Shown: positions 4,946 through 35,953 of the stretch, one piece after another
How the letters are laid out: each line of letters starts with the position of its first letter
How positions within the stretch are numbered: position 1 is the first letter of the stretch
Notes under the pieces: model-generated
The model's database searches: none
What the model saw: only the letters and a program-made list of their open reading frames with translations
What the model was told of the DNA's origin: nothing
Assembly (NCBI GenBank): GCA_015065215.1
Contig: SVQT01000021.1
Coordinates: forward strand, 1 to 35,953
Direction: 5' to 3'
DNA: 35,953 nucleotides
Origin: Oscillospiraceae bacterium
GTDB taxonomy: Bacteria; Bacillota; Clostridia; Oscillospirales; CAG-272
Made by a program: the position numbers and the translations under genes

Positions 4946-5929
4946 TTAAAGAGTTGCTGCCATAACGGCCTTGATGGTATGCATGCGATTTTCGGCCTCG
5001 TCAAAGACGATCGATTTGGGGCCTTCGATAACCTCGTGGGTCACCTCCATACAATCAATACCAAACTGCTCGTAGATCTCACGGCCAATGACGGTGCCGA
5101 GATCGTGGAAGGCGGGCAGACAGTGCATAAAGCGGCACTGCTCACCGGCATGATCCATTAGTGCCTTGGTCACACGGTAAGGGGAAAGATCCTTGATGCG
5201 CTCGGCAAAAACCTCCTTGGGCTCACCCATCGATACCCATACATCGGTATAAAGCACATTGGCATCCTCAACCGCCTTGGCGGGATCCTCCTCAAAGGTA
5301 ATAGTGGCGCCGGTCTCCTTGGCAATGGCAAGGCACTGCTCCACCAGCGCGCTTTCCGGCCAATACTTCTTGGGGGCGGCAGCGACAAAGTGCATGCCCA
5401 TCTTGGCGCAACCGACCATCAGGGAGTTCCCCATATTGTAGCGCGCATCCCCCAGATAGACCAGCTTTTTACCCTTCAGCTCGCCGCAATGCTCACGGAT
5501 GGTAAGGAAATCGGCCAGGATCTGGGTGGGGTGGAACTCGTTGGTAAGGCCGTTCCAGACCGGCACCCCCGCATAAGCGGCCAGCTCCTCTACGATGGAT
5601 TGACCAAAGCCACGATACTCGATGCCGTCAAACATACGGCCAAGCACGCGAGCAGTATCCGGGATGCTCTCCTTTTTGCCGATCTGGGATCCGGTGGGAT
5701 CCAAATAGACCGGGTGCATACCCAGATCGTTAGCGGCTACCTCAAAGGCACAGCGGGTGCGGGTGCTGGTCTTTTCAAAGATCAGCGCAATACTCTTGCC
5801 ATCGCAAAGACGGTGAGCAACGCCCGCTTTTTTCTTCGCCTTCAATTCGGCGGCAAAGTCAATGAGATAGGTTATTTCAGCAGGGGTAAAATCCAACAGC
5901 TTGAGAAAATGTCTTCCTTTTAAATTCAT
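4946..5929 (-). CDS. argF: Ornithine carbamoyltransferase
   Basis: Makes citrulline from ornithine and carbamoyl phosphate, the sixth step of arginine synthesis. The 327-residue product shows the carbamoyl-phosphate motif STRTR, the HPTQ motif and the ornithine-binding HCLPAF motif in the right order. An upstream in-frame GTG at 5941 overlaps the argD stop. The ATG at 5929 is preferred because GAGG lies six bases upstream and [14 protein letters not shown] is the usual family start. It is the last gene of the arg operon, and a strong bidirectional hairpin lies directly downstream. Confidence 0.97.
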
Positions 5930-5937
5930 TCTACACC

Positions 5938-7104
5938 TCACTCGGCAATCACCGAAAGAATGATCTCGGCGGCCTTTTTTAATTGTTCAACAGGAATATT
6001 CAAGGCAGGCAGCAAGCGCACCTTGTTTTTTGCGGTCAGACAAAGCACCCCTTTTGCCATACAGGCCTTCACCACTTCGGCGGCCGGCTTCTCGGTCTCA
6101 ATACCAATCATCAGACCCATACCGCTCACTGAGCGAACGCCCTTGGCGCCGCTAAAGGTCTTTTTCAAATATGCGCCCTTTTCGGCGACCTCGGCCATCA
6201 GCTTTTCATCGATACGGGAAATTACGTTACAAGCACCCGCTGAAGCGATAGGGTTGCCGCCATAGGTAGAGCCATGATCGCCAAAACCCAACACGTTTTG
6301 TACCTTTTCGCCCAAAAGGCAAGCGCCGATGGGTAACCCACCACCAAGCCCCTTGGCTGTGGTCACCACGTCGGGGGTAACGCCGTGGTGCATATAAGCA
6401 TAGAATTTGCCGGTGCGGCCGTTGCCGGTCTGGACCTCATCAAACATCAGTACGATGTCCTCTTTTTGGCAAAGTGCCGCCACGCCGCGGATAAAGTCGC
6501 CATCTACCACATGGACACCGCCCTCACCCTGAATACACTCGATCAGAATACCGGCAACCTTGTAATTCGCCAAAATTTCCTCAAATTCTTTCAGATTTCC
6601 AGGTTCCAGATGCACAAAGCCGGGGGTGAGCGGCTGGAACAGCTCGTGATAGTGCTCTTGACCGGTGGCGGCCAGCGTGGTCAGCGTTCTGCCGTGAAAG
6701 CTGTTTTTCAAGGTCACAATCACGTTATATTCGGGGCCTTTTTTCTCGGCGGCATACTTGCGCGCCACCTTGATCGCGCACTCGTTGGCCTCAGCACCGC
6801 TATTACCGAAAAAGACCTTTTTTAACCCCGTTTTGGCACATAATGCCTCTGCCAGCCTGGCGCAGGGCTCGGTATAGTAGAGATTGGAGGTGTGCTGCAC
6901 CTTGGAAAGCTGCTCAATCACGGCCGCTTGCCAGGCCTTGTCGGCAATGCCAAAGGCCGTAACGCCGATACCGCTGCCAAGATCAATATATGCCTTTCCC
7001 TCGGCATCATAGACCATTGAGCCCTCGCCCTTGACAATCTCCACAGGGAAACGGGCATAGGTGCCCGCTACATATTTTTTATCCAGCGCTTGCAATTCGC
7101 TCAT
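5938..7104 (-). CDS. argD: Acetylornithine aminotransferase
   Basis: A PLP-dependent class III aminotransferase that interconverts N-acetylglutamate semialdehyde and N-acetylornithine. The 388 residues match the family length. Visible are the '[16 protein letters not shown]' cofactor region, '[14 protein letters not shown]' and the PLP lysine in '[13 protein letters not shown]'. It follows argB by two bases, and its stop nearly touches the ribosome site of argF, so translation along the operon is tightly coupled. Confidence 0.97.
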
Positions 7105-7106
7105 TG

Positions 7107-7976
7107 TTATTCTCCCTTGACCATAGTGCCTGCGCCCTCATCAGTCAAAAGCTCCATCAAAATGGAGTGGGGCACACGACCGTCCATAATGGTAACATCC
7201 TTCACGCCGCGGTGCAACGCCTCGATACAGCAATCCACCTTAGGGATCATACCGCCCGAGATGACACCCTCCTCATACAGCTTCCCCGCCTCCTCGATGG
7301 TGATATGCGGGATGAGCGTGGTGGGATCATCCTTATCGCGCAGAATACCCGCAATATCGGTCATCATAATCAGTCGCTCGGCGCCGAGCGCACCCGCGAT
7401 ATAGGCGGCGGCGGTATCGCCATTGATATTATACACATTTCCCTGTCGGTCACTGGCTACAGTGGAGACCACGGGGATATAATTCTTTTCCAACAGATCG
7501 GTAACCGGCTGTGGGCGGATCTTGGTGATTTTACCCACATACCCCAAACGCTCATCCTTGATCTGCGCCTCGATGAGGCCGCCGTCGATGCCGGAAAGTC
7601 CAATCGCATGTCCGCCTTTGGTCTGCAAAAGCGTTACAAGCGATTTGTTGACCTTGCCCGCCAGAACCATCTGCACAATGTCCACCGTCTCTTTATCAGT
7701 CACACGCAGACCGTCTACAAACTCGGGCTTTTTGCCCAGCTTGCTCATCATTTCGTTGATCTCGGGGCCGCCGCCGTGTACCAGCACAACCTTGACGCCA
7801 ATCAGCCACAGCAGAGCAATGTCTTCCATAACCTGCTCCTTGAGCTGCTCGTTGATCATGGCGTTACCGCCGTATTTGACCACAATGATCTTGCCGTTAA
7901 ATTTTTTGATGTAGGGCAGCGCCTGGGTCAAAACCTCGGCTCTCTGCGCGTTGGAAAAATGATTGTCGATATTCAT
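7107..7976 (-). CDS. argB: Acetylglutamate kinase
   Basis: Phosphorylates N-acetylglutamate, the second pathway step. The 289-residue amino-acid-kinase fold has 'KIIVVKYGGNAM' near residue 30, the 'LVHGGGPEINEM' nucleotide/substrate loop, 'GLSGIDGGLI' and the C-terminal 'GGMIPKVDCCIEAL' ATP-binding region. The N-terminal helix 'AEVLTQALPYIKKF' is of the kind found in arginine-inhibited hexameric kinases, so feedback inhibition is plausible but not shown. A 215-base spacer separates it from argJ upstream, an unusual gap in this otherwise compact operon. Confidence 0.97.
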   Translation of the reverse strand: MNIDNHFSNAQRAEVLTQALPYIKKFNGKIIVVKYGGNAMINEQLKEQVMEDIALLWLIGVKVVLVHGGGPEINEMMSKLGKKPEFVDGLRVTDKETVDIVQMVLAGKVNKSLVTLLQTKGGHAIGLSGIDGGLIEAQIKDERLGYVGKITKIRPQPVTDLLEKNYIPVVSTVASDRQGNVYNINGDTAAAYIAGALGAERLIMMTDIAGILRDKDDPTTLIPHITIEEAGKLYEEGVISGGMIPKVDCCIEALHRGVKDVTIMDGRVPHSILMELLTDEGAGTMVKGE

Positions 7977-8191
7977 GGTTTCCTCTTAAAATGTGTGTTT
8001 TTTGATACCGTTTATGGGGATTTTACGGGAGGAACACCCCCCCTACACGGCTACGCCCTGATGAAAAAAGCAAGCAGGGCAATGGCACCCAATTTCGCCT
8101 GCGGCGAAACAGCGAAACGCCGACGGTGTCGTCATCTACTCCGAGGTGTTGGGGGCGATGCGGAACACAGCTATGCGCCGCTTATTTCACA
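7977..8191. other. 215-base non-coding spacer inside the arg operon
   Basis: Between argJ and argB, where the other arg genes overlap or sit a few bases apart (argG-argH: 82), there are 215 bases without a credible gene. It holds a short hairpin near 8092 (TTCGCC-TGC-GGCGAA class), a C-rich run around 8037 and a GC-rich right half, with a base composition unlike the flanking genes. It looks like an inserted repeat or a degenerate remnant. No transposase or direct repeats could be identified. Confidence 0.5.
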
Positions 8192-9406
8192 TCAGGTTCT
8201 GTAATCTCCGTTGATCTTCACATAGTCATATGTCAAGTCACAGCCAAAGGCGGTGGCACTGCAATCGCCACTGTTCAGATCCACCAAAATCTCGATCTCC
8301 TTCTCCAGCAAAATCTCTTTGGCAATCTCCTCGGAAAAGTCCACACCCGCGCCGTTTTCACAAACGCTGACAGTGCCCTTCGCCGAGCGGAAGGCTACGT
8401 CTACCTTATGTACATCCACAGCCGCGCCGCTGTAGCCGATGGCGCAAAGCACGCGGCCCCAGTTGGCATCGGCGCCGAACATAGCGGCCTTTAAAAGGCT
8501 GGAGCAAATCACGCTCTTGGCTACCGTCTTGGCGGTTTTGTCATCCGCCGCGCCGCTGACCTTGCACTCCAACAGCTTCGTGGCACCCTCGCCGTCACCG
8601 GCGATCATACGGCACAGATACACAGTCACCGTGTTCAGCGCCTTCATAAATGTGGCAAAATCCGCACCGTCCTCGGTGATCTCCCCATTTCCGGCCATTC
8701 CGTTTGCCAGGATGGTGACCATATCGTTGGTAGAGGTATCGCCGTCCACGCTGGTCATATTAAAAGTGTTTTGCACATCATGCTTCAATGCCTTTTCCAG
8801 CATCTGGGCGGAAATGGCAGCATCGGTGGTGAGAAACACCAGCATGGTCGCCATATTGGGGTGAATCATTCCGCTTCCCTTGGCAATACCGCCAAGATGG
8901 CAGATCTTGCCGCCCAGGGTGAACTCGACAGCAATCTCCTTTTTCACGGTATCGGTGGTCATGATACCCTCCGCGGCATCGGCACCGCCATTTGCGGAAA
9001 GTGTCTTTGCCAGCATCGGAATGCCCGCGGCAATCGGCTCGATATTCAAAGGCTGGCCAATGACACCGGTAGAAGCAACCACCACGTCAGTGGCGGAAAT
9101 GCTTAGCTCTTTTGCCACCAAATCACTCATTTGCTCGGCAATCTCAATGCCGTTGGCGTTGCAGGTGTTGGCGTTGCCGCTGTTACAGATCACAGCCTGG
9201 GCAAAGCCGTCAGCAATATGATTTTTGGTAACGGTCAGGGGGGCGCCCTTGACCAGGTTGGTGGTGTAAACGGCGGCCGCGTGCGCGCGCGTCTCACTCA
9301 CAATCAAGGCAATGTCCTTCTTGGTACGGTTTTTGCGGATGCCGCAATGGACACCACTTGCCATAAAGCCTTTTGCGGCACAAATGCCGCCGGAAATGAT
9401 CTTCAT
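8192..9406 (-). CDS. argJ: Bifunctional glutamate N-acetyltransferase / ornithine acetyltransferase
   Basis: Transfers the acetyl group from N-acetylornithine to glutamate and, in bifunctional forms, also uses acetyl-CoA; this makes the pathway cyclic. The 404-residue precursor contains the self-cleavage region 'GIAKGSGMIHPNMATML', where the Thr of ATML becomes the N-terminal nucleophile of the beta chain. The oxyanion-type 'STGVIG' motif is also present. The start is fixed by AGGAG inside the end of argC, with a four-base gap between the genes. No argA or argE is visible in the window, consistent with ArgJ serving both acetylation roles. Confidence 0.96.
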   Translation of the reverse strand: MKIISGGICAAKGFMASGVHCGIRKNRTKKDIALIVSETRAHAAAVYTTNLVKGAPLTVTKNHIADGFAQAVICNSGNANTCNANGIEIAEQMSDLVAKELSISATDVVVASTGVIGQPLNIEPIAAGIPMLAKTLSANGGADAAEGIMTTDTVKKEIAVEFTLGGKICHLGGIAKGSGMIHPNMATMLVFLTTDAAISAQMLEKALKHDVQNTFNMTSVDGDTSTNDMVTILANGMAGNGEITEDGADFATFMKALNTVTVYLCRMIAGDGEGATKLLECKVSGAADDKTAKTVAKSVICSSLLKAAMFGADANWGRVLCAIGYSGAAVDVHKVDVAFRSAKGTVSVCENGAGVDFSEEIAKEILLEKEIEILVDLNSGDCSATAFGCDLTYDYVKINGDYRT

Positions 9407-9410
9407 TATT

Positions 9411-10337
9411 TTATTCTCCTATGATAAGCCCGGTGGTCTCATCCACACCGAGCAAAATGTTCATGTTTTGAATAGCGGCACCCGAGGCACCCTTGCCCAG
9501 ATTATCAAAGCGAGCGATCAACAGGATGCGATCATCGTTTCCGCTCACCCGCACCTCCATATCATCTCTGCCGGAAAAGGCGTTGGCGGAAAGGAAGCCG
9601 CCCTCGCCATCTCCCTGGACAAAGCGAACCAATTTGCCTTGATAGGTGGCTCTGTAGACTGCTTTCACATCCTCAAGTGTTCCGTTCAGATCTCTGGCAA
9701 ACACCGGAACGGTAACCTCCATACCGCTGTAGAAATCCCCGACAATGGGGCAAAAAACAGGAGCGTTCGCAAGCCCCGCGATCCGCATCATCTCAGGCAA
9801 ATGCTTGTGGGCTTGGGCGATACCGTACTGGCGGGGGGCCTCCAACAGCTTGTCCCGATCGGCAGCCTCATAATCAGCGATCATTTTCTTACCGCCGCCA
9901 GAGTAACCGGTGAGCGAAAAGCATGTGAGATGCGCGTCTTTTTTCAAAACACCCGCGCGGACAAGTGGCTCGGTCAAAGCCAGAAAGCCGCTGGCGTGAC
10001 AACCGGGATTGGCAATGCGCTTGGAGGCGGCAATGGCTTCTTTACGGGCAAGCTCGGGGAAGCCGTAGGTCCACGTGGGATCCACACGATGAGCGGTAGA
10101 GGTATCAATCACCGCCACATTTTTGTTTTCGATCATCGAAACCGCTTCCACCGCGGCGGCATCCGGCAAGCAGAGAAAGACAATGTCCGCGCCGTTGATG
10201 GCCTCTCGCCTGGCGGCGGGATCCTTGCGAACCGCGTCAGGCAGGGTAACAAGCGTTAAATCCTCTCTTTTGGAAAGTCTTTCATGAATGCGCAGTCCCG
10301 TTGTTCCAACGGAACCGTCAATAAATACGTTTGTCAT
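9411..10337 (-). CDS. argC: N-acetyl-gamma-glutamyl-phosphate reductase (short type)
   Basis: Reduces acetylglutamyl phosphate with NADPH to the semialdehyde. At 308 residues it belongs to the shorter ArgC type. It begins with 'VFIDGSVGTTGLRIHERL' (nucleotide fold) and has the catalytic cysteine in 'NPGCHASGF' near residue 117. Its ATG overlaps the argH TGA by four bases, a sign of translational coupling. It lies between argH and argJ in the operon. Confidence 0.96.
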   Translation of the reverse strand: MTNVFIDGSVGTTGLRIHERLSKREDLTLVTLPDAVRKDPAARREAINGADIVFLCLPDAAAVEAVSMIENKNVAVIDTSTAHRVDPTWTYGFPELARKEAIAASKRIANPGCHASGFLALTEPLVRAGVLKKDAHLTCFSLTGYSGGGKKMIADYEAADRDKLLEAPRQYGIAQAHKHLPEMMRIAGLANAPVFCPIVGDFYSGMEVTVPVFARDLNGTLEDVKAVYRATYQGKLVRFVQGDGEGGFLSANAFSGRDDMEVRVSGNDDRILLIARFDNLGKGASGAAIQNMNILLGVDETTGLIIGE

Positions 10338-11707
10338 TTTAAACGCTCCTTTACATAGGAGATCTGCTCTCTCACCGAAGCCAGCGAGGTGCCGCCCTCA
10401 GAAATGCGGGTCTCAACGCAGGTACGCAAAGAGATGGCGTCGTACAGATCCTGATCAAACAGGTCGCTGTAGGCGCGGTAAACGTCCAAAGATAGCTCCT
10501 CGAGCACCGTGTTTTCAGCAATGCATTTTGCCACCAGTTGACCTGAAATCTTATAAGCACTGCGGAAGGGCATTCCCTTCTTGACCAGATAGTCGGCAAG
10601 ATCGGTCGCGTTGATAAAGCCCTTTTGCGCCGCGCGAAGCATATTTTCCCGATTGGCTACCATGGTAGCCACCATGCCGTCAAAAACCTGTAAACACATC
10701 TTCACGGTATCCACCGCGTCAAAAATGCTCTCCTTATCCTCCTGCATATCCTTATTGTAAGCAAGCGGAATGCCCTTGAGGGTGGTGAGCAGTGCCATCA
10801 GGTCGCCGTATACACGGCCGGTCTTGCCGCGCACCAGCTCAGCCATATCCGGGTTTTTCTTTTGCGGCATGATCGAGGAGCCGGTAGTATAGGCATCGGA
10901 TAGCTCCACGAATTTGAATTCCCAACTGCACCAAAGAATGATCTCCTCCGAGAAGCGGGATAGATGCATCATCAAAATCGACAGCGCGGAAAGCATCTCC
11001 AAGGCAAAATCACGGTCGGAAACGCCGTCCAGGCTATTGCGGCAGATGCCGTCAAAGCCGAGACGCTCCGCCTCGAAGCGGCGGTCGGTCTCATAGGTGG
11101 TGCCGGCCAGCGCGCAGCAGCCAATGGGCGATTGGTTCATGCGCTTGCGGCAATCGGCAAGACGATCCAGATCACGCAGCAGCATCATGGCATAGGCCAT
11201 GAGATGATGCCCGAACAAAATCGGCTGTGCTCGTTGCAAATGCGTGTAGCCGGGCAGGATCACGTCGGCATATTCTTCTGCTTTATCAGTCACCGTCGCC
11301 ACCAGCGCGCGCGCCAGTGCGGCGATCTCGTCAATCTCAGCGCGCAGATACATCCGCAAATCCAGGGCCACCTGATCGTTTCGGCTACGGGCGGTGTGTA
11401 GCTTTTTGCCCACCTCACCCAGTCGCTCGGTCAGCACCTGCTCTACGAACATATGAATATCCTCAGCGGTCATGTCGATCGCCAGCTTGCCCTCCTCCAG
11501 ATCGGAAAGGATGCCGGCAAGCCCATCGATCAAGGTGTCGGCCTCGGCCTTGGCAATAATCCCCTGCTTTGCCAGCATAGCGGCGTGCGCCATACTGCCG
11601 GTGATGTCCTGCTGATACATTCTGCTGTCAAAGTGGATCGAGGAATTGAAGTCATCCGCGATCTGATCGGTATTGCCGGCAGTCCTTCCGGCCCACATTT
11701 TTGCCAT
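10334..11707 (-). CDS. argH: Argininosuccinate lyase
   Basis: Splits argininosuccinate to arginine and fumarate, the last pathway step. The 457 residues are the normal length. It carries the fumarase/aspartase-superfamily signature 'GSSIMPQKKNPDMAELVRG' and conserved 'TARSRNDQVALDLRM' and 'GYTHLQRAQPI' segments. AAGGAG eight bases upstream supports the ATG at 11707. The operon places the last two pathway genes, argG and argH, first. Confidence 0.97.
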   Translation of the reverse strand: MAKMWAGRTAGNTDQIADDFNSSIHFDSRMYQQDITGSMAHAAMLAKQGIIAKAEADTLIDGLAGILSDLEEGKLAIDMTAEDIHMFVEQVLTERLGEVGKKLHTARSRNDQVALDLRMYLRAEIDEIAALARALVATVTDKAEEYADVILPGYTHLQRAQPILFGHHLMAYAMMLLRDLDRLADCRKRMNQSPIGCCALAGTTYETDRRFEAERLGFDGICRNSLDGVSDRDFALEMLSALSILMMHLSRFSEEIILWCSWEFKFVELSDAYTTGSSIMPQKKNPDMAELVRGKTGRVYGDLMALLTTLKGIPLAYNKDMQEDKESIFDAVDTVKMCLQVFDGMVATMVANRENMLRAAQKGFINATDLADYLVKKGMPFRSAYKISGQLVAKCIAENTVLEELSLDVYRAYSDLFDQDLYDAISLRTCVETRISEGGTSLASVREQISYVKERLK

Positions 11708-11734
11708 GATCGTCTCTCCTTAAAGAACACCATA

Positions 11735-11769
11735 GGACTGCCGCGTCCATTCATCGGAAACGGCAGTCC
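11735..11769 (-). other. Intercistronic hairpin between argG and argH
   Basis: A nine-base-pair stem (GGACTGCCG with CGGCAGTCC) with a 17-base loop lies in the 82-base argG-argH gap. There is no T-run, so it is more likely an mRNA processing or stabilising structure than a terminator. Confidence 0.5.
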
Positions 11770-11789
11770 ATGTATGGGATACTGCTTGA

Positions 11790-13013
11790 TTATTTCAGCT
11801 TGCCCTGATCAGCCAAGGCCTGTACCTGGATCGGCAGACCAAAGAGGTTGATAAAGCCCTCGGCATCCTTTTGGTTGTAATCGCTCTCGCCAAAGGTCGC
11901 GATTTCCTCGCTATAGAGGGTGTAGGGGCTCCAAGCGCCGGCGTTGATCATATTGCCCTTATAGAGCTTCAGTCTGACCTTACCTGTCACACGCTCCTGG
12001 GTTTTGTCAACAAACGCGGCCAGCGCCTCGCGCAGCGTGGTGAACCACTGACCGTTGTAGACCAGCTCGCCGTAGGTCACAGCCAGCTTTTGCTTTTCGT
12101 GCATGGTGTACTTATCAAGGCAAAGCGTTTCGAGAACGCTGTGTGCCTTGTACAGGATGGCGCCGCCGGGGGTCTCGTAAACGCCGCGGCACTTCATGCC
12201 GACCAAACGATTCTCGACAATATCCAGCAGACCGATACCGTTCTCGCCGCCCAGCTTGTTAAGGGTGAGGATAATGTTCTTGGCGCTCATCTTCTCGCCG
12301 TTGAGCGCTACCGGAGCGCCCTTTTCAAACTCCAGCTCCACATAGGTGGGTGTGTCAGGAGCAGTGATGGGCGAAACACCCATTTCCAAAAAGCCGGGCT
12401 TTTCATACTGAGGCTCATTGCCGGTATCCTCAAGATCCAGGCCCTCGTGGGAAAGATGCCACAGATTCTTATCCTTGGAGTAGTTGGTCTCACGGTTGAT
12501 CTTCAAGGGGACATTGTGCGCCTCGGCGTAATCAATCTCCTCCTCACGGGATTTGATGCTCCACTCACGCCAAGGGGCAATGATGGGCATATCCGGTGCG
12601 AAGTGCTTGATGGTCAGCTCAAAGCGAACCTGGTCATTGCCCTTACCGGTGCAGCCGTGCGCGATGGCGTCAGCGCCCTCCTTGATGGCAATGTCAACCA
12701 ACGCCTTGGCAATGCAGGGACGGGCGTGGCTGGTGCCAAGCAGATATTCCTCGTAAATAGCGCCTGCTTTCACGCAGGGAATGATGTAATTGTCAACATA
12801 GTCGTCGGTCAGATCCAGCACATAGCACTTGGAAGCGCCGGTCTTGATGGCCTTTTCCTCCAGGCCCTCCAGCTCGTCCGCTTGACCGACATTGCCCGAA
12901 ACAGCGATAACCTCGCAGTTATTGTAATTTTCCTTAAGCCACGGAATGATGATCGAGGTATCCAGACCGCCGGAATATGCGAGTACGACTTTTTTGATGT
13001 TTTTCTTATCCAT
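11790..13013 (-). CDS. argG: Argininosuccinate synthase
   Basis: Condenses citrulline and aspartate with ATP. The 407-residue product starts [20 protein letters not shown], containing the N-type ATP pyrophosphatase P-loop SGGLDTS, followed by '[13 protein letters not shown]' and '[20 protein letters not shown]'. The frame is open 49 codons further upstream, but that stretch contains the promoter and an ARG box. The ATG at 13013 has GGAGG seven bases upstream and matches the family start. It is the first gene of the arg operon. Confidence 0.97.
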
Positions 13014-13023
13014 GATTTGCCTC

Positions 13024-13041
13024 CGCGAATAAATATTCATG
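13024..13041 (-). promoter_or_regulatory. ARG box (ArgR/AhrC operator) in the argG leader
   Basis: On the minus strand this reads CATGAATATTTATTCGCG, close to the Bacillus AhrC consensus CATGAATAAAAATKCAAK. It lies between the transcription start and the argG ribosome site, where a bound ArgR hexamer would block transcription. Confidence 0.75.
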
Positions 13042-13061
13042 AGTTTTTCACTACGCGGATT

Positions 13062-13090
13062 ATTATACAACTTCCCGCAAGGCTTGTCAA
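13062..13090 (-). promoter_or_regulatory. Promoter of the arginine operon
   Basis: On the minus strand TTGACA (13090-13085), a 17-base spacer and TATAAT (13067-13062) match the housekeeping consensus exactly. Transcription would start near 13055, about 40 bases before the argG ATG, and continue through argF. Confidence 0.93.
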
Positions 13091-13159
13091 CCCCTTTTTT
13101 AAAAGTAATAAAAAAATAATGCACAAAACACGCAGCGCCTTTCCCCTTCTTTTGTTCCA

Positions 13160-13177
13160 TATGAATAAATTTGCATA
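13160..13177. promoter_or_regulatory. Upstream ARG box 1
   Basis: The plus strand reads TATGAATAAATTTGCATA, with 13 of 18 positions matching the AhrC consensus by my count. It lies about 115 bases upstream of the arg transcription start and about 60 bases upstream of the divergent -35 box. Confidence 0.65.
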
Positions 13178-16983: not shown

Positions 16984-19900
16984 TCAACTGCGCTTCCACC
17001 AGTAACCGCTATAAGTCGTTTTCAGGTAGGTTGCCGCAGTGGCAGTATTTTCCAGATCGGTGGCGGGCAGCGCCGTACCGGAGGTGGCGGCGGAATCACC
17101 TGTATACCACCAACCATCGTTTTCGACAAAGCTCACGTTAGTCAGTGCCGTGCAACCGTAGAAGGCATTCGTGCCGATCTTGGTCAAGTTCGCCGGAAAT
17201 TCGATTGTGGTCAAGCCCGTGCAACCTTGGAAGGCGCATGTGCCGATCTCAGTCAAGCTCGCGGGGAACTCGATGGCGGTCAAGCCCGTACAGCCGTAGA
17301 AGGCATTGTTACCAATCTTTATTACACCGGCGGGAAGGGTAATGCTGGTAATACCCGCATATTCATTATGACCACTGTTATCAAAAAACCGGTCGGGAAT
17401 GACGGTACCAGCATTGATGATCAGAGTCGTCAAAGATGTGGGCACGGTTTCCACGCCTGCCAGCTCATAGCTATCGAACAACCAGCTGAACTGCTCAATC
17501 ACATTATTCGAATCCTGACCGCTCACGGTGGGGATGGGCATGGTCAGGCTTTGCAGCTGATTGCATCCACCAAAAACACCTTGGTCAAGGGAGGTTACGC
17601 TGGCAGGGATCACCAGCTCGGTCAGCGCACCGCAGCCTGCAAAGGCACTGTCACCAATGGTGGTCAATCGGGAGCCGGTAGCAAAGGTCACCGTTTCAAG
17701 CGCTGCACATTCCTTGAAAGCGCCACCGCTGATGGTCACTACGCTTGCGGGAATGGTGATCTCGGTCAAGGCGGCACCCCCGAAAGCGTAATAGTCGATC
17801 TTCAAAAGTCCCTCGGGCAGATCAATGGCGGTCAGAGCCGTGCAACGCTCAAAAGTAAACATGTTAATGACCTGAAGCCCCGCAGGCAGTTCAATCTCAG
17901 AAAGATTGCTACAGCCCGCAAATGCCTGTCCCCCGATCTCGGTAACAGTGGTAGGAATGTTGATGGTGGTCAGCGCACTGCAACCGTTAAAGGCGCGTAT
18001 ACCGATCCGCTGCAGCCCTTGGGGCAGCGTCACGGTGGTCAGAGCATCAAAGCCGTAAAAGGGACCGGCGTAGGTGTAATCGGGGATCTCAGTCGTGCCC
18101 ACGATATGAACTGTAGTCAAGGTGTCCGGCACCTCGCAAAGGATCTCACCGCTCGGTCCCATGCCATCCACCTCAAACAGATATTGCAAGCCGTCCCAAC
18201 CTTCCATGCCTGCCACGCCAAGATTGAAGGTAACCTTCAGCACGGGCGTTGTCAGGCTGACAACATTGTTACAGCCCATAAGAGCGCCGCGACCGATGGT
18301 GTGTACGCTTGTGGGAATGACCACGTTGGTGAGACCGTCAAAGCCTGCAAGCGCCCAGTTACCCAGCACGGTCAGCCCTGCGGGAATGGCAGGGGGATTG
18401 TCGGTAATATCCACACCGTTAATATATAGCGTGTTACTGATCCGTACGGGATTGCTATCATGGACTGCGCCAAAGCCGATGGCAAGCCAATCGGCAAAGG
18501 CGCCGGTGTATTCCACGCGCTCCAGCGCATCGCAGTCGGCAAACGCCGTGCCACCCACCGTCCGCAAGCTTGCGGGCAGCACGATCTTTTCCAGCCCGGT
18601 ACAGCCTGAGAAGGCACTGGCACCGATCTCGGTCAAGGTCTCGGGCAGATGTACGCCGATGATACCGTCAAGATCCTTAAAGGCATCGCCACTCAGCTTT
18701 GCCACGGGGCAACCCTCGATATAGGCAGGAATGATGAGATTGGAAATATCGCTCTTCAATCCGGTCAGCGTCACCTTACCACCGGAAATGGTATAGTAGA
18801 AATCGGTGGGTTCCGCTTCCTCTGCCCATTTGGCAAAGACCGACACAGACGCTGCGGGCACGGTGGTGATCTGGGTACCGTCGGCAGTGAACCAGCCTGC
18901 AAAGGTGAAGCCCTGCCGCACAGGGGTGGGCAGTGCCTGTCCCAGCAGCAGCTGCTCGCTGCTTGCCACACCGCTGTTGTTGAAGGTCACGGTGGATGCC
19001 GTGGTGGAGAAGGTGACTTCTATCGTTTCCTGGGCGTTGCCGTTCTGGTAGGTTGCCACCAGGCGGTATTCGGTGCCCGAGGTGAGACCGGTTACCGCGG
19101 TATCGGTCACGGCAAGATCGCGTACCTTGTTCTCACCCTGGTACAGGGCAAGAGAAAGCAGCGTCTTATTGGTAACTGCCTCATCCCACAGCAGCGAGAA
19201 GCTGACATCGTAGGGACTGGGCTGCACCTCATGAAAGAGCACCACGTATTTGGTATAGACTGCCTGCGAGGTCAGAACATGGTGGGTAATACCCGCGCCG
19301 TCCATGGCATCGTATATGGCGATCACCGCGTATTGATAGAGCGTATTGGTGGTAAGGCCGTCAAAGGTCACGGTCTGCGTGCCCAATGCCAGCTCCTTAG
19401 TAGCGACCACACTGTCACCGTCATAGAGCACGGCGTAAAGCTTGCTCTCGCTCATGCCAAGCAACCCCTTTGCATCGGTCACGGTGGCAGAGAACGCGAG
19501 CGAGTGATAGTCAATCGTCTCGCCAGAGAAGGCGGCGGTCGGCTGCTGTTCAATGTAAACGGCAATATCGACCGTTTTATCGCCAGCCATGCGAACATCC
19601 TTGATCTTTTCGCCGTCTACATATTTGATCGCGTCAATGGTGTAGGAGGTAATACCCTCGGCATTCTCGGGGATCTGTACCTTAAGGATCAGGTTCTCCA
19701 GATCCGAGCCGTACTCGAACATGTAAGAGGTGTACGTTTTGCCGTTGAGGGTAAAGGACAGGATCTCAAAGCTATCCGGGTTGTCTACATGTACGGTAAT
19801 GTAGACGTATTCCCCTGCCTTGGCGTAATAGAGAGCGACATCGCTGCCGGTCACCGCAAACACATCCTTGACCGCGTCGCCGATCGGCTTTTTACCGTTC

Positions 19901-20250
19901 GGGAAGGGCTTTGCCTGATCCACGGGTCCGCGCCCCGCCTGATCACCATTCACATTTCCGGGGGCGTTGTAATCCGCGACAGCATCCGCAAAAGAAAGCG
20001 TGTTGATCGGTATTTCGTTGGATACCGTCATACCGGTATAAACCGGCACCTGCTTACCAAGCAACACAACCAACAAAATGGCCGTGGTGGCAATGAGCGC
20101 CAGTGCCGCCGCCATGGAGGTAATGGAAATGATCCATTTTCTGCGGTTATGGCTTCGCATCAAGGCAATGCGCTTTTGGGTATTCTTTTCCACAATACCG
20201 TCATCCATCCGCGATAGGATCTCCAAGCGCCGTTTTTGCTTATCATTCAT
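16984..20250 (-). CDS. Anti-sigma-like membrane protein with Fn3-like and BspA-type leucine-rich-repeat ectodomain
   Basis: A 1088-residue single-pass protein. Residues 1-38 are a charged cytoplasmic segment (RRLEILSRMDDGIVEKNTQKR) of the kind found in anti-sigma tails partnered with ECF factors. Residues 39-65 are one membrane helix. Outside follow a beta-rich region (about 120-235), two Fn3-like modules (about 235-415), a Listeria-Bacteroides repeat (about 420-475, 'GFTFAGWFTADG...VFAKW') and about 20 LRR_5/BspA-type units (about 485-1040, pattern 'ITLPAGVIKIGNNAFYGCTGL'). The tail ends in WWKRS without LPXTG. Its ATG overlaps the sigma-factor stop by eight bases. I infer a membrane receptor that holds the sigma factor and senses a surface or extracellular ligand. 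A plain surface LRR adhesin is the alternative. Confidence 0.85.
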   Translation of the reverse strand: MNDKQKRRLEILSRMDDGIVEKNTQKRIALMRSHNRRKWIISITSMAAALALIATTAILLVVLLGKQVPVYTGMTVSNEIPINTLSFADAVADYNAPGNVNGDQAGRGPVDQAKPFPNGKKPIGDAVKDVFAVTGSDVALYYAKAGEYVYITVHVDNPDSFEILSFTLNGKTYTSYMFEYGSDLENLILKVQIPENAEGITSYTIDAIKYVDGEKIKDVRMAGDKTVDIAVYIEQQPTAAFSGETIDYHSLAFSATVTDAKGLLGMSESKLYAVLYDGDSVVATKELALGTQTVTFDGLTTNTLYQYAVIAIYDAMDGAGITHHVLTSQAVYTKYVVLFHEVQPSPYDVSFSLLWDEAVTNKTLLSLALYQGENKVRDLAVTDTAVTGLTSGTEYRLVATYQNGNAQETIEVTFSTTASTVTFNNSGVASSEQLLLGQALPTPVRQGFTFAGWFTADGTQITTVPAASVSVFAKWAEEAEPTDFYYTISGGKVTLTGLKSDISNLIIPAYIEGCPVAKLSGDAFKDLDGIIGVHLPETLTEIGASAFSGCTGLEKIVLPASLRTVGGTAFADCDALERVEYTGAFADWLAIGFGAVHDSNPVRISNTLYINGVDITDNPPAIPAGLTVLGNWALAGFDGLTNVVIPTSVHTIGRGALMGCNNVVSLTTPVLKVTFNLGVAGMEGWDGLQYLFEVDGMGPSGEILCEVPDTLTTVHIVGTTEIPDYTYAGPFYGFDALTTVTLPQGLQRIGIRAFNGCSALTTINIPTTVTEIGGQAFAGCSNLSEIELPAGLQVINMFTFERCTALTAIDLPEGLLKIDYYAFGGAALTEITIPASVVTISGGAFKECAALETVTFATGSRLTTIGDSAFAGCGALTELVIPASVTSLDQGVFGGCNQLQSLTMPIPTVSGQDSNNVIEQFSWLFDSYELAGVETVPTSLTTLIINAGTVIPDRFFDNSGHNEYAGITSITLPAGVIKIGNNAFYGCTGLTAIEFPASLTEIGTCAFQGCTGLTTIEFPANLTKIGTNAFYGCTALTNVSFVENDGWWYTGDSAATSGTALPATDLENTATAATYLKTTYSGYWWKRS

Positions 20251-20848
20251 ACGATATGCCCTCCCTCTCCAAATGCTCCCTCAAGCCATTCCGCATATCG
20301 CTTAGAGTGCGGAAGACCGTGGGCTCGCTGATCTTGAGCATTTTGGCAATGCTGGCGATCTTATCGGCGTAATAGTAGCGACAAACAAAGATAAACTGCT
20401 CCCGTTCAGACAAAGAGTGCAAATAGGTGTTCAGGGCGCGCGCAAGCTCCCTCACCTCGATCTCCTCTTCAACCGACAGATCATTGGCAATACAATCCTC
20501 CAGCTCGTCCAACGACACCATCAGCTCGGAAGGCACACGCTTTGCTGCCGATTTGGCGCGGAACTTGTCCACCGCCGCATTGCGCATGATACGGGTCAGA
20601 AAGGCTTGAAAGACAGTGGGGCGCTTGGGTGGAATCGAATTCCACGTGTTCAGATATGTATCGTTGAGGCATTCCTCACAATCCATATTGTCGTAGACGA
20701 TGTTATACGCCACCGTAAACAGGTATTTCCCGTATTTACGGTCTGTCTCCTCGATCGCCTTCTCGTTTCGATCCCAATAGAGATCAATAATTGTCTCGTC
20801 CGGCAAATACTCCTTTTGGGGTGACCGAACCGCGTTGTCCTGCTTCAT
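20243..20848 (-). CDS. RNA polymerase sigma factor, ECF-like sigma-70 family
   Basis: A 201-residue sigma factor. Region 2 is recognisable around 'YLFTVAYNIVYDNMDCEECLNDTYLNTWNSIPP' and 'FLTRIMRNAAVDKFRAK', and region 4 around 'LSEREQFIFVCRYYYADKIASIAKMLKISEPTVFRTLSDMR', a helix-turn-helix. Upstream ATGs exist, but the one at 20848 has GGAG six bases before it, while the ATG at 20854 would touch the GGAG. A TATAAT lies at 20890-20885 without a clear -35 box. The next gene overlaps it and carries an anti-sigma-like tail, the usual arrangement of a sigma/anti-sigma pair. Confidence 0.92.
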   Translation of the reverse strand: MKQDNAVRSPQKEYLPDETIIDLYWDRNEKAIEETDRKYGKYLFTVAYNIVYDNMDCEECLNDTYLNTWNSIPPKRPTVFQAFLTRIMRNAAVDKFRAKSAAKRVPSELMVSLDELEDCIANDLSVEEEIEVRELARALNTYLHSLSEREQFIFVCRYYYADKIASIAKMLKISEPTVFRTLSDMRNGLREHLEREGISYE

Positions 20849-20959
20849 ATGCATCTCCTTTCGTGCGAGGAAATATCTCCCTCTATTATACATGACGAAA
20901 AATGCATCAAAATCTATCACGATTCTTCAAAAAATTTCAAAAAATTATTTTTATTTATG

Positions 20960-35548: not shown

Positions 35549-35577
35549 ACTATATCACACCGCGCCGTCGATTGCAA
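35549..35577 (-). promoter_or_regulatory. Promoter of the permease-araM operon
   Basis: On the minus strand TTGCAA (35577-35572), a 17-base spacer and TATAGT (35554-35549), about 45 bases before the permease ATG. Confidence 0.8.
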
Positions 35578-35602
35578 GGGTTTTTTTCAAATTTTGTCAT
35601 TT

Positions 35603-35953
35603 TTAGGAAAGGGGCAGACGCTCCCCTTCATACAATCCTTGAAAACAGCTGTTTTCCACATTAAACCGTACCCCCTCAATATGCAAAACACGAGCAATTG
35701 GCGCGTCATAGGCAGAAAGCGGTCTATTGTAAACATCATTGGAATGGGCAGAAAGCAGCAGCTCCTCACCTCGCCTGCCGGTCACCAGCAGGGTATGATA
35801 AAAATCCCCCGCATTGTCCCCCAGCTGCACAACGTCTCCCAGCTCCGCTTCCGCCTGTGTCGCCTCTCGCCCAAAGGGACCGATTCCACCGTTGGCGGCG
35901 GCAAAAGCGGGCGCGCCGGTAAAAAAATCCTAAAAATATTCCACACCGGTAAA
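35603..35953 (-). pseudogene. Amidase-domain protein (Amidase_6-like), 3' part, interrupted by in-frame TAG
   Basis: The C-terminal part of a putative secreted amidase/peptidoglycan-type domain runs off the right edge. The readable frame gives 'DFFTGAPAFAAANGGIGPFG', 'ELGDVVQLGDNAGDFYHTLLVT', 'LLLSAHSNDVYNRPLSAY' and 'RVLHIEGVRF', with the catalytic His region (FYHTLLVT) and AHS. Immediately upstream the frame reads 'TGVEYF' and then TAG (35932-35930). Relatives I recall continue through this point with an aromatic or Asn residue (TGVEYFYDF-like), so the amber codon interrupts a conserved stretch. It may be a pseudogene, a sequence error or recoding. A GTG restart at 35830 would lack half the domain. 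Confidence 0.6.

Follow-up and report, generated by a model that had tools for sequence, protein, structure and literature searches.

A sigma factor paired with a leucine-rich-repeat membrane protein as a candidate one-piece anti-sigma receptor in gut-type Clostridia

In Clostridium thermocellum, RsgI is a single-pass protein whose cytosolic N-terminus binds the sigma factor and which carries a domain outside the membrane; its C-terminal sensors are exchangeable (carbohydrate-binding module, GH10, PA14 or protease-like), and XAA sites let ClpXP take RsgI fragments (passages of PMC12203970). Among the anti-sigmas of extracytoplasmic function (ECF) sigma factors, CnrY (class II) has a two-helix segment contacting regions 4 and 2 of CnrH, and in class I anti-sigmas (RseA, RsiW) a charged region 4 contact co-varies with the sigma factor (passages of PMC7406223). 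Here we analysed a stretch of 35,953 nucleotides (nt) from an Oscillospiraceae bacterium (contig SVQT01000021.1, assembly GCA_015065215.1; hereafter the window), a genome of gut-type Clostridia, in which an ECF-type sigma gene overlaps the gene of a 1088-residue membrane protein with a leucine-rich-repeat (LRR) exterior that probably holds the sigma factor captive from inside.

On the basis of gene order, tail conservation, co-variation, ectodomain swaps and a promoter motif, all computed directly, we consider it rather probable that the two proteins constitute a one-piece transmembrane signalling unit, with a short tail restraining the sigma factor and the exterior sensing. The best reading is an anti-sigma receptor working like RsgI yet not RsgI; the proposal of the initial annotation that this is a one-piece anti-sigma receptor was strengthened by tail-sigma co-variation, near-strict pairing and recurring LRR ectodomains.

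The sigma factor and its membrane partner across genomes

The sigma factor contains sigma70 regions 2 and 4 and lacks regions 1.1 and 3, as in the ECF type. Sigma70_r2 was matched in Pfam at 8.6e-10, with both region 4 models slightly under cut-off, and sigma70-ECF in NCBIfam at 1.3e-21; the best NCBIfam models were of the ECF type, SigI being absent among the best 25 of 64 matches. The AlphaFold2 model (mean predicted local distance difference test score, pLDDT, 80.5) showed the usual helices, and its Foldseek matches included sigma factors complexed with RsiW (SigW), RseA (sigmaE), MucA and CnrY (CnrH), at template modelling scores of about 0.4-0.5. PADLOC returned nothing for the sigma factor beyond weak helix-turn-helix and CARF matches. 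The gene begins with the ATG at 20848 on the minus strand, the ATG of the partner lies inside it, and the two coding sequences share 8 nt (20243-20250), exactly the overlap of eight bases first noted.

At E<=1e-30, 228 of the 295 genomes in the taxonomic family had a homolog of the sigma factor, and a self-composed query retrieved relatives in 65 of 391 genomes of the class. We assembled 148 distinct sigmas (143 from genome stretches chosen among the matches listed, four from named records, and the window), and in 143 of them a membrane protein was encoded directly after the sigma gene, the co-encoding typical of anti-sigmas. Three of the remaining five partners run off the contig or the stretch retrieved, each starting with the tail, and two loci (L114, L163) showed none. 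The genes overlapped by 4 nt in 101 cases and by 8 nt in 15. Pairing of sigma and membrane protein is thus near-strict and far beyond chance.

The same genome encodes a second sigma, 60% identical, overlapping by 8 nt a 1399-residue LRR protein (N-terminus 55% identical), and a third, 41-42% identical, followed by a 631-residue membrane protein without LRR. Moreover, in other families of the class an open reading frame (ORF) occupied the equivalent position in 50 of 50 pairs, 43 of them with a 4-nt overlap. In Lachnospira eligens, Monoglobus pectinilyticus and Vescimonas fastidiosa the gene after the sigma is annotated as hypothetical and starts with a tail of the same kind, so that a reading is now offered for genes such as these. 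Sigma search of genome contigs gave 13 loci. Five were Bacteroidota matches at 24-26% identity and eight lay in Clostridia or Oscillospiraceae records, four of these from sheep colon, goat caecum or roe deer caecum. No relative of the LRR protein was found among viral contigs. LRR homologs lacking an adjacent sigma gene had been raised as a possible objection: most LRR_5 proteins of the genome adjoin no relative of this sigma, yet both tail-carrying ones do. Separately, proteins with tandem repeats such as GKTPQLRINPENNMWEYRYD stand at contig ends (L037:9178-9945, L045:1-2520), one of them adjoining the second sigma-LRR pair.

Conserved tail, co-variation with the sigma factor and variable exteriors

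The tail carries the family motif LxxxSxIDxDIIEK....R and has no Cys for a zinc motif; AlphaFold2 places helices at residues 3-12 and 17-32 with low confidence (pLDDT about 50-60). Partners of close sigmas showed a loose form of the pattern in 38 of 40 cases and partners of distant sigmas in 84 of 108, and the two tail profiles aligned with each other (hhalign 96.8%, E 2.2e-10) despite differing ectodomains. What follows the tail is more restricted: the PVYxGMT-like juxtamembrane motif occurred in 35 of 40 close versus 1 of 108 distant partners, and the membrane-proximal beta domain in 28 of 40 versus 1 of 108. This domain, with the family pattern YITVHxxNPDxFEILSFTLNG, has many invariant columns in the 18 partners aligned as LRR-bearing, among them Asn-Pro (N157-P158). 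Ala-Ala stood in the membrane helix, at residues 47-48, in 73 of 86 aligned partners, and a second strong hydrophobic segment in only one of the 86 (L120).

Co-variation between sigma and tail was computed on 144 of the 148 sigmas (effective number 120), with short or weakly hydrophobic partners left out. The top pair was sigma D162 with tail R27 (score 0.338, 5% threshold 0.226), and no permutation within sigma clusters matched this score (0 of 100, then 0 of 400). The charges at these positions were acidic-basic in 92 of the 144 pairs, basic-acidic (Arg-Asp) in 17 and alike in four; on the sigma tree the swap amounts to five changes, and three independent supported pairs showed the same direction or no difference. 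In the 50 pairs from outside families, of which each test used 29 to 48 owing to gaps, sigma 151 with tail 22, 152 with 23 and 156 with 23 co-varied (p<=0.002), as did 170 with 27 and with 31 (p<0.01), under plain permutation that ignores kinship. These patterns suggest an interaction between tail and sigma factor.

The exterior agrees with the architecture first proposed, one membrane helix followed by Fn3-like, Listeria-Bacteroides and BspA-LRR parts. Pfam matched LRR_5 in five stretches (2.3e-89), which identifies BspA-type LRRs; the Listeria-Bacteroides repeat scored 24.7 bits with NCBIfam TIGR02543 (cut-off 20.95) and missed the Pfam cut-off, and fn3 (0.0027) fell under its Pfam cut-off. 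The AlphaFold2 model (mean pLDDT 72) has one membrane helix spanning residues 40-63, then beta-sandwich domains up to about residue 415 and LRR-like strands at about 484-1040, and Foldseek listed bacterial LRR proteins first (4fs7 on top) with Fn3 arrays further down.

Relatives often encode similar pairs of sigma factor and membrane protein whose outer parts differ, and the system therefore looks like a modular one-piece sensor. By motif count, 20 of 31 complete close partners had an LRR exterior, or 21 with L107, which the count missed and Pfam added; LRR and non-LRR exteriors changed six times on the sigma tree. Pfam applied to 41 close partners (a partly different set) gave LRR_5 in 20, fn3 in 13, Flg_new in seven, M23 peptidase in four, and single matches including a beta-propeller, and in 45 distant partners a single weak DUF match. 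The complete close partners without LRR carried an M23 peptidase (L097, L099), a Flg_new repeat (L096) or weak fn3, Ig or PKD matches, and L094 had no Pfam match in its exterior. The close-clade partners with an M23 peptidase exterior lie at L097:1322-2983 and L099:1340-3013. In a further close-clade partner, L091:1282-5397, Tox-HDC, DUF1149, GLUG and fn3 score above cut-off, with no single Tox-HDC stretch passing.

Predicted promoter of the operon and neighbouring genes

A shared promoter motif, looked for upstream of the sigma gene as the initial annotation had advised, was found. The consensus from 35 of 37 close loci (L114 and L120 left out) was GTGNNAGNTTTT-N10-NCGACTTATA...AGAG. When the scoring model was built from relatives alone, the window promoter reached 21.6 bits, the best of 1050 letter-shuffled upstream regions reaching 12.9. 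With each of the 35 upstream regions left out in turn, 25 of them, the window included, scored above all 1050 shuffles. Given this conserved promoter upstream of its gene, the pair probably activates itself, and autoregulation of the sigma operon is likely. Distant-clade sigma genes (e.g. L126, L141, L153) have a different, well conserved promoter-like block upstream, ending TTTTTGGTACTACTATTTATGAAGGGCCTTTC, suggesting that each sigma clade has a promoter type of its own.

Beyond the operon, no site in the rest of the window rose above shuffles (next best 14.4, at 35572-35615, versus 15.1 for the best of 20 shuffled windows), and in the 2.14-Mb assembly, 84.6% complete, the operon's own site alone lay below E 3 (E 3.9e-4; next 3.5), a score that is circular because the window site is in the model. 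An alternative that we hold to be unlikely, though the strongest of the rivals, would account for this distribution: the LRR protein would be mainly a surface adhesin, its production controlled by the sigma factor that its tail tethers or titrates, as a self-limiting switch with no external sensing. LRR_5 proteins without a relative of the sigma beside them are also common in the genome, as this account would have it. However, the profile search scored 150 of 909 candidates in an incomplete assembly, the six changes of ectodomain type are as expected of exchangeable sensors, and relatives have sites outside sigma operons, so targets can exist. In 12 relatives, 15 of the 24 listed sites preceded a sigma-partner pair, many of these being in the model; the other nine included two in G096 before zinc-ribbon-like proteins and one in G246 before a LepA-like gene. 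A wider regulon in relatives is possible. The two G096 sites (L199 and L200; C91:10601-10642 and C119:4433-4467) are strong and precede proteins that start with zinc-ribbon-like Cys patterns, making these candidate regulon members.

The features of the locus are collected in Table 1. The neighbours first noted in the window, an AraC gene and glycosidase-like genes, are genuine, the latter with GH39/42 and GH16 matches; their proposed role as targets found no support, no promoter site standing out before them in the window or genome search. A conserved third gene of the operon was rejected: of the 30 complete close loci, 12 had a same-strand ORF of at least 100 residues within 150 nt, and by eye the downstream ORFs were of no common kind. 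Elsewhere in the window, positions 4946-13160 of the minus strand hold an arginine biosynthesis cluster (OTC, class III aminotransferase, amino acid kinase, ArgJ, semialdehyde dehydrogenase, argininosuccinate lyase and synthase).

Table 1 Features of the sigma-LRR locus, in window positions
Feature	Position	Strand	Basis
ECF-type sigma factor, 201 residues, regions 2 and 4 only	20243..20848	-	Pfam, NCBIfam, AlphaFold2, Foldseek
1088-residue membrane protein, proposed anti-sigma receptor	16984..20250	-	Coding sequence, Pfam, AlphaFold2 model
Residues 1-39, cytosolic tail, proposed anti-sigma segment, two predicted helices	20134..20250	-	Conservation despite unlike ectodomains; co-variation of residue 27 with sigma 162
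Residues 40-63, membrane helix	20062..20133	-	AlphaFold2 model; partner alignment
Residues 66-78, juxtamembrane motif KQVPVYTGMTVSN	20017..20055	-	PVYxGMT-like motif in partners
Residues 138-236, membrane-proximal beta domain, no Pfam name	19543..19839	-	Invariant columns and modelled strands
Residues 238-415, Fn3-like region, about two domains inferred from strand count	19006..19539	-	Sub-cut-off fn3, strands, Foldseek Fn3 arrays
Residues 420-478, Listeria-Bacteroides repeat	18817..18993	-	TIGR02543 above cut-off
Residues 484-1040, BspA-type LRR region	17131..18801	-	LRR_5; first Foldseek match 4fs7
Predicted ECF promoter GTGATAGATTTT - 10 nt - TCGTCATGTATAATAGAGGGAG	20877..20920	-	Starts 72 nt before sigma ATG; motif model

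Proposed mechanism and comparison with known systems

For the preferred reading, a one-piece anti-sigma receptor, we infer binding, inhibition, ligand sensing, proteolysis and positive feedback by analogy with RsgI (passages of PMC12203970) and ECF anti-sigmas (passages of PMC7406223). The tail of the LRR protein would bind the sigma factor, mainly at region 4, and keep it inactive at the membrane, until the LRR/Fn3 exterior meets a ligand or surface and the protein is cut or shed outside. A next cut would fall within the membrane helix, and degradation of the freed tail would release the sigma factor, which would then switch on its operon at the conserved promoter upstream and yield more sigma and receptor. 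The Ala-Ala of the membrane helix fits a ClpXP site, and M50 protease matches were found in the genome.

Several observations weigh against this reading. M50 proteases were found in 14 of 14 control genomes, so that their presence says little. D162-R27 is the sole pair beyond the familywise threshold, the pairs available for its test on the tree are too few to reach significance, and it did not recur among the outside pairs (p=0.34, n=35, with shorter, gapped tails), where 160-24, 170-24 and 97-9 were not significant at 0.05 either. Of the top 20 pairs, 12 join region 4 to tail residues 17-34, a number that permutations also reach (mean 9.1, max 15). In the genome's second sigma-LRR pair the promoter motif is lacking (-3.3 when left out). 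Finally, the view that the first 38 residues are an anti-sigma tail stands in part: a cytosolic tail of 39 residues does co-vary with the sigma factor, and no named anti-sigma family was matched in Pfam (86 partners), in NCBIfam (at most 45 distinct proteins, covering 41 close partners and five proteins, with the 45 distant partners left out) or in PDB sequences, against which the tail profile found ribosomal proteins only (E>=0.4); a DUF3379 match occurred in one of 41 partners and was weak (0.0091).

The tail may be a new anti-sigma class, and we give about even chances to the fuller proposal that, with its LxxxSxIDxDIIEK....R motif, it is an undescribed, very short class present across Clostridia, with helix 2 on region 4 and with swapped exteriors (LRR, M23 peptidase, beta-propeller, Fn3 or unnamed).

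Improbable, by comparison, is a tail acting as a positive partner, the sigma factor needing the membrane protein for activity or localisation, as the co-encoded, region 4-contacting partners in the solved complexes listed among the Foldseek matches, and in passages of PMC7406223, are anti-sigmas. Co-variation leaves this account some room, since it suggests interaction, not its sign. The kinship with RsgI implied by the initial annotation did not hold: RsgI_N (PF12791) was found neither in the window protein (E<=1) nor in 86 partners (0.01) nor in the genome (1e-4), and the sigma factor is of the ECF rather than the SigI type. That the pair is a genuine RsgI/SigI-type system with an N-terminal domain too diverged to be recognised is very improbable, in spite of the same architecture of tail, helix, proximal domain with conserved Asn-Pro and exchangeable exterior. 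RsgI_N occurs in 13 genomes of the order, out of 147, and is absent from this one. In hhalign, neither the tail nor the proximal domain, the latter compared with the corresponding region of RsgI, where the self-cleaving outside domain lies, matched 10 RsgI proteins from the RsgI_N-bearing genomes, although close and distant tails were joined by this test. The tail is also predicted to be helical, RsgI_N having another fold.

Many eukaryotic receptors recognise their ligands through LRR domains, and an LRR exterior wired to a sigma factor would, if the one-piece anti-sigma receptor is real, be a bacterial LRR receptor with direct transcriptional output. If the tail class holds as well, one-piece surface receptors acting on transcription would form a large family in Clostridia, the LRR type being one. 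The many paired sequences make partner specificity and ligand classes testable. Among the titles and abstract openings listed on LRR or BspA proteins together with sigma or anti-sigma factors, 15 of 41 papers in one case, none describes such a pair, and listings of the ECF literature on Ruminococcus and on Lachnospiraceae contained none either.

Compared with SigI-RsgI, the LRR protein is also single-pass, with a cytosolic tail, an outside domain and an exchangeable exterior, and the Ala-Ala of the partner membrane helices resembles the XAA sites reported for RsgI; in contrast, the sigma factor here is ECF, the tail is short with another motif, the exterior is LRR and RsgI_N is not matched. 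The CnrY segment sits before one membrane helix. Like it, the tail is short with two helices predicted at low confidence, but it has no PDB sequence match, the ectodomain is huge, and the residue co-varying with region 4 lies in the second helix, not the first. With class I anti-sigmas it shares a charged residue co-varying with region 4; their four-helix domain, and the zinc motif that about half of them carry, were not found in its 39 residues, which form two predicted helices, contain no Cys and match nothing in Pfam. The LRR fold is that of 4fs7 and 4gt6, which we take to be BspA-labelled LRR surface proteins, whereas here it is joined to a membrane helix and a tail beside a sigma gene. 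Working like RsgI while failing the RsgI tests, and as short as CnrY with no sequence match, the system is best placed as a variant of the one-piece anti-sigma receptor.

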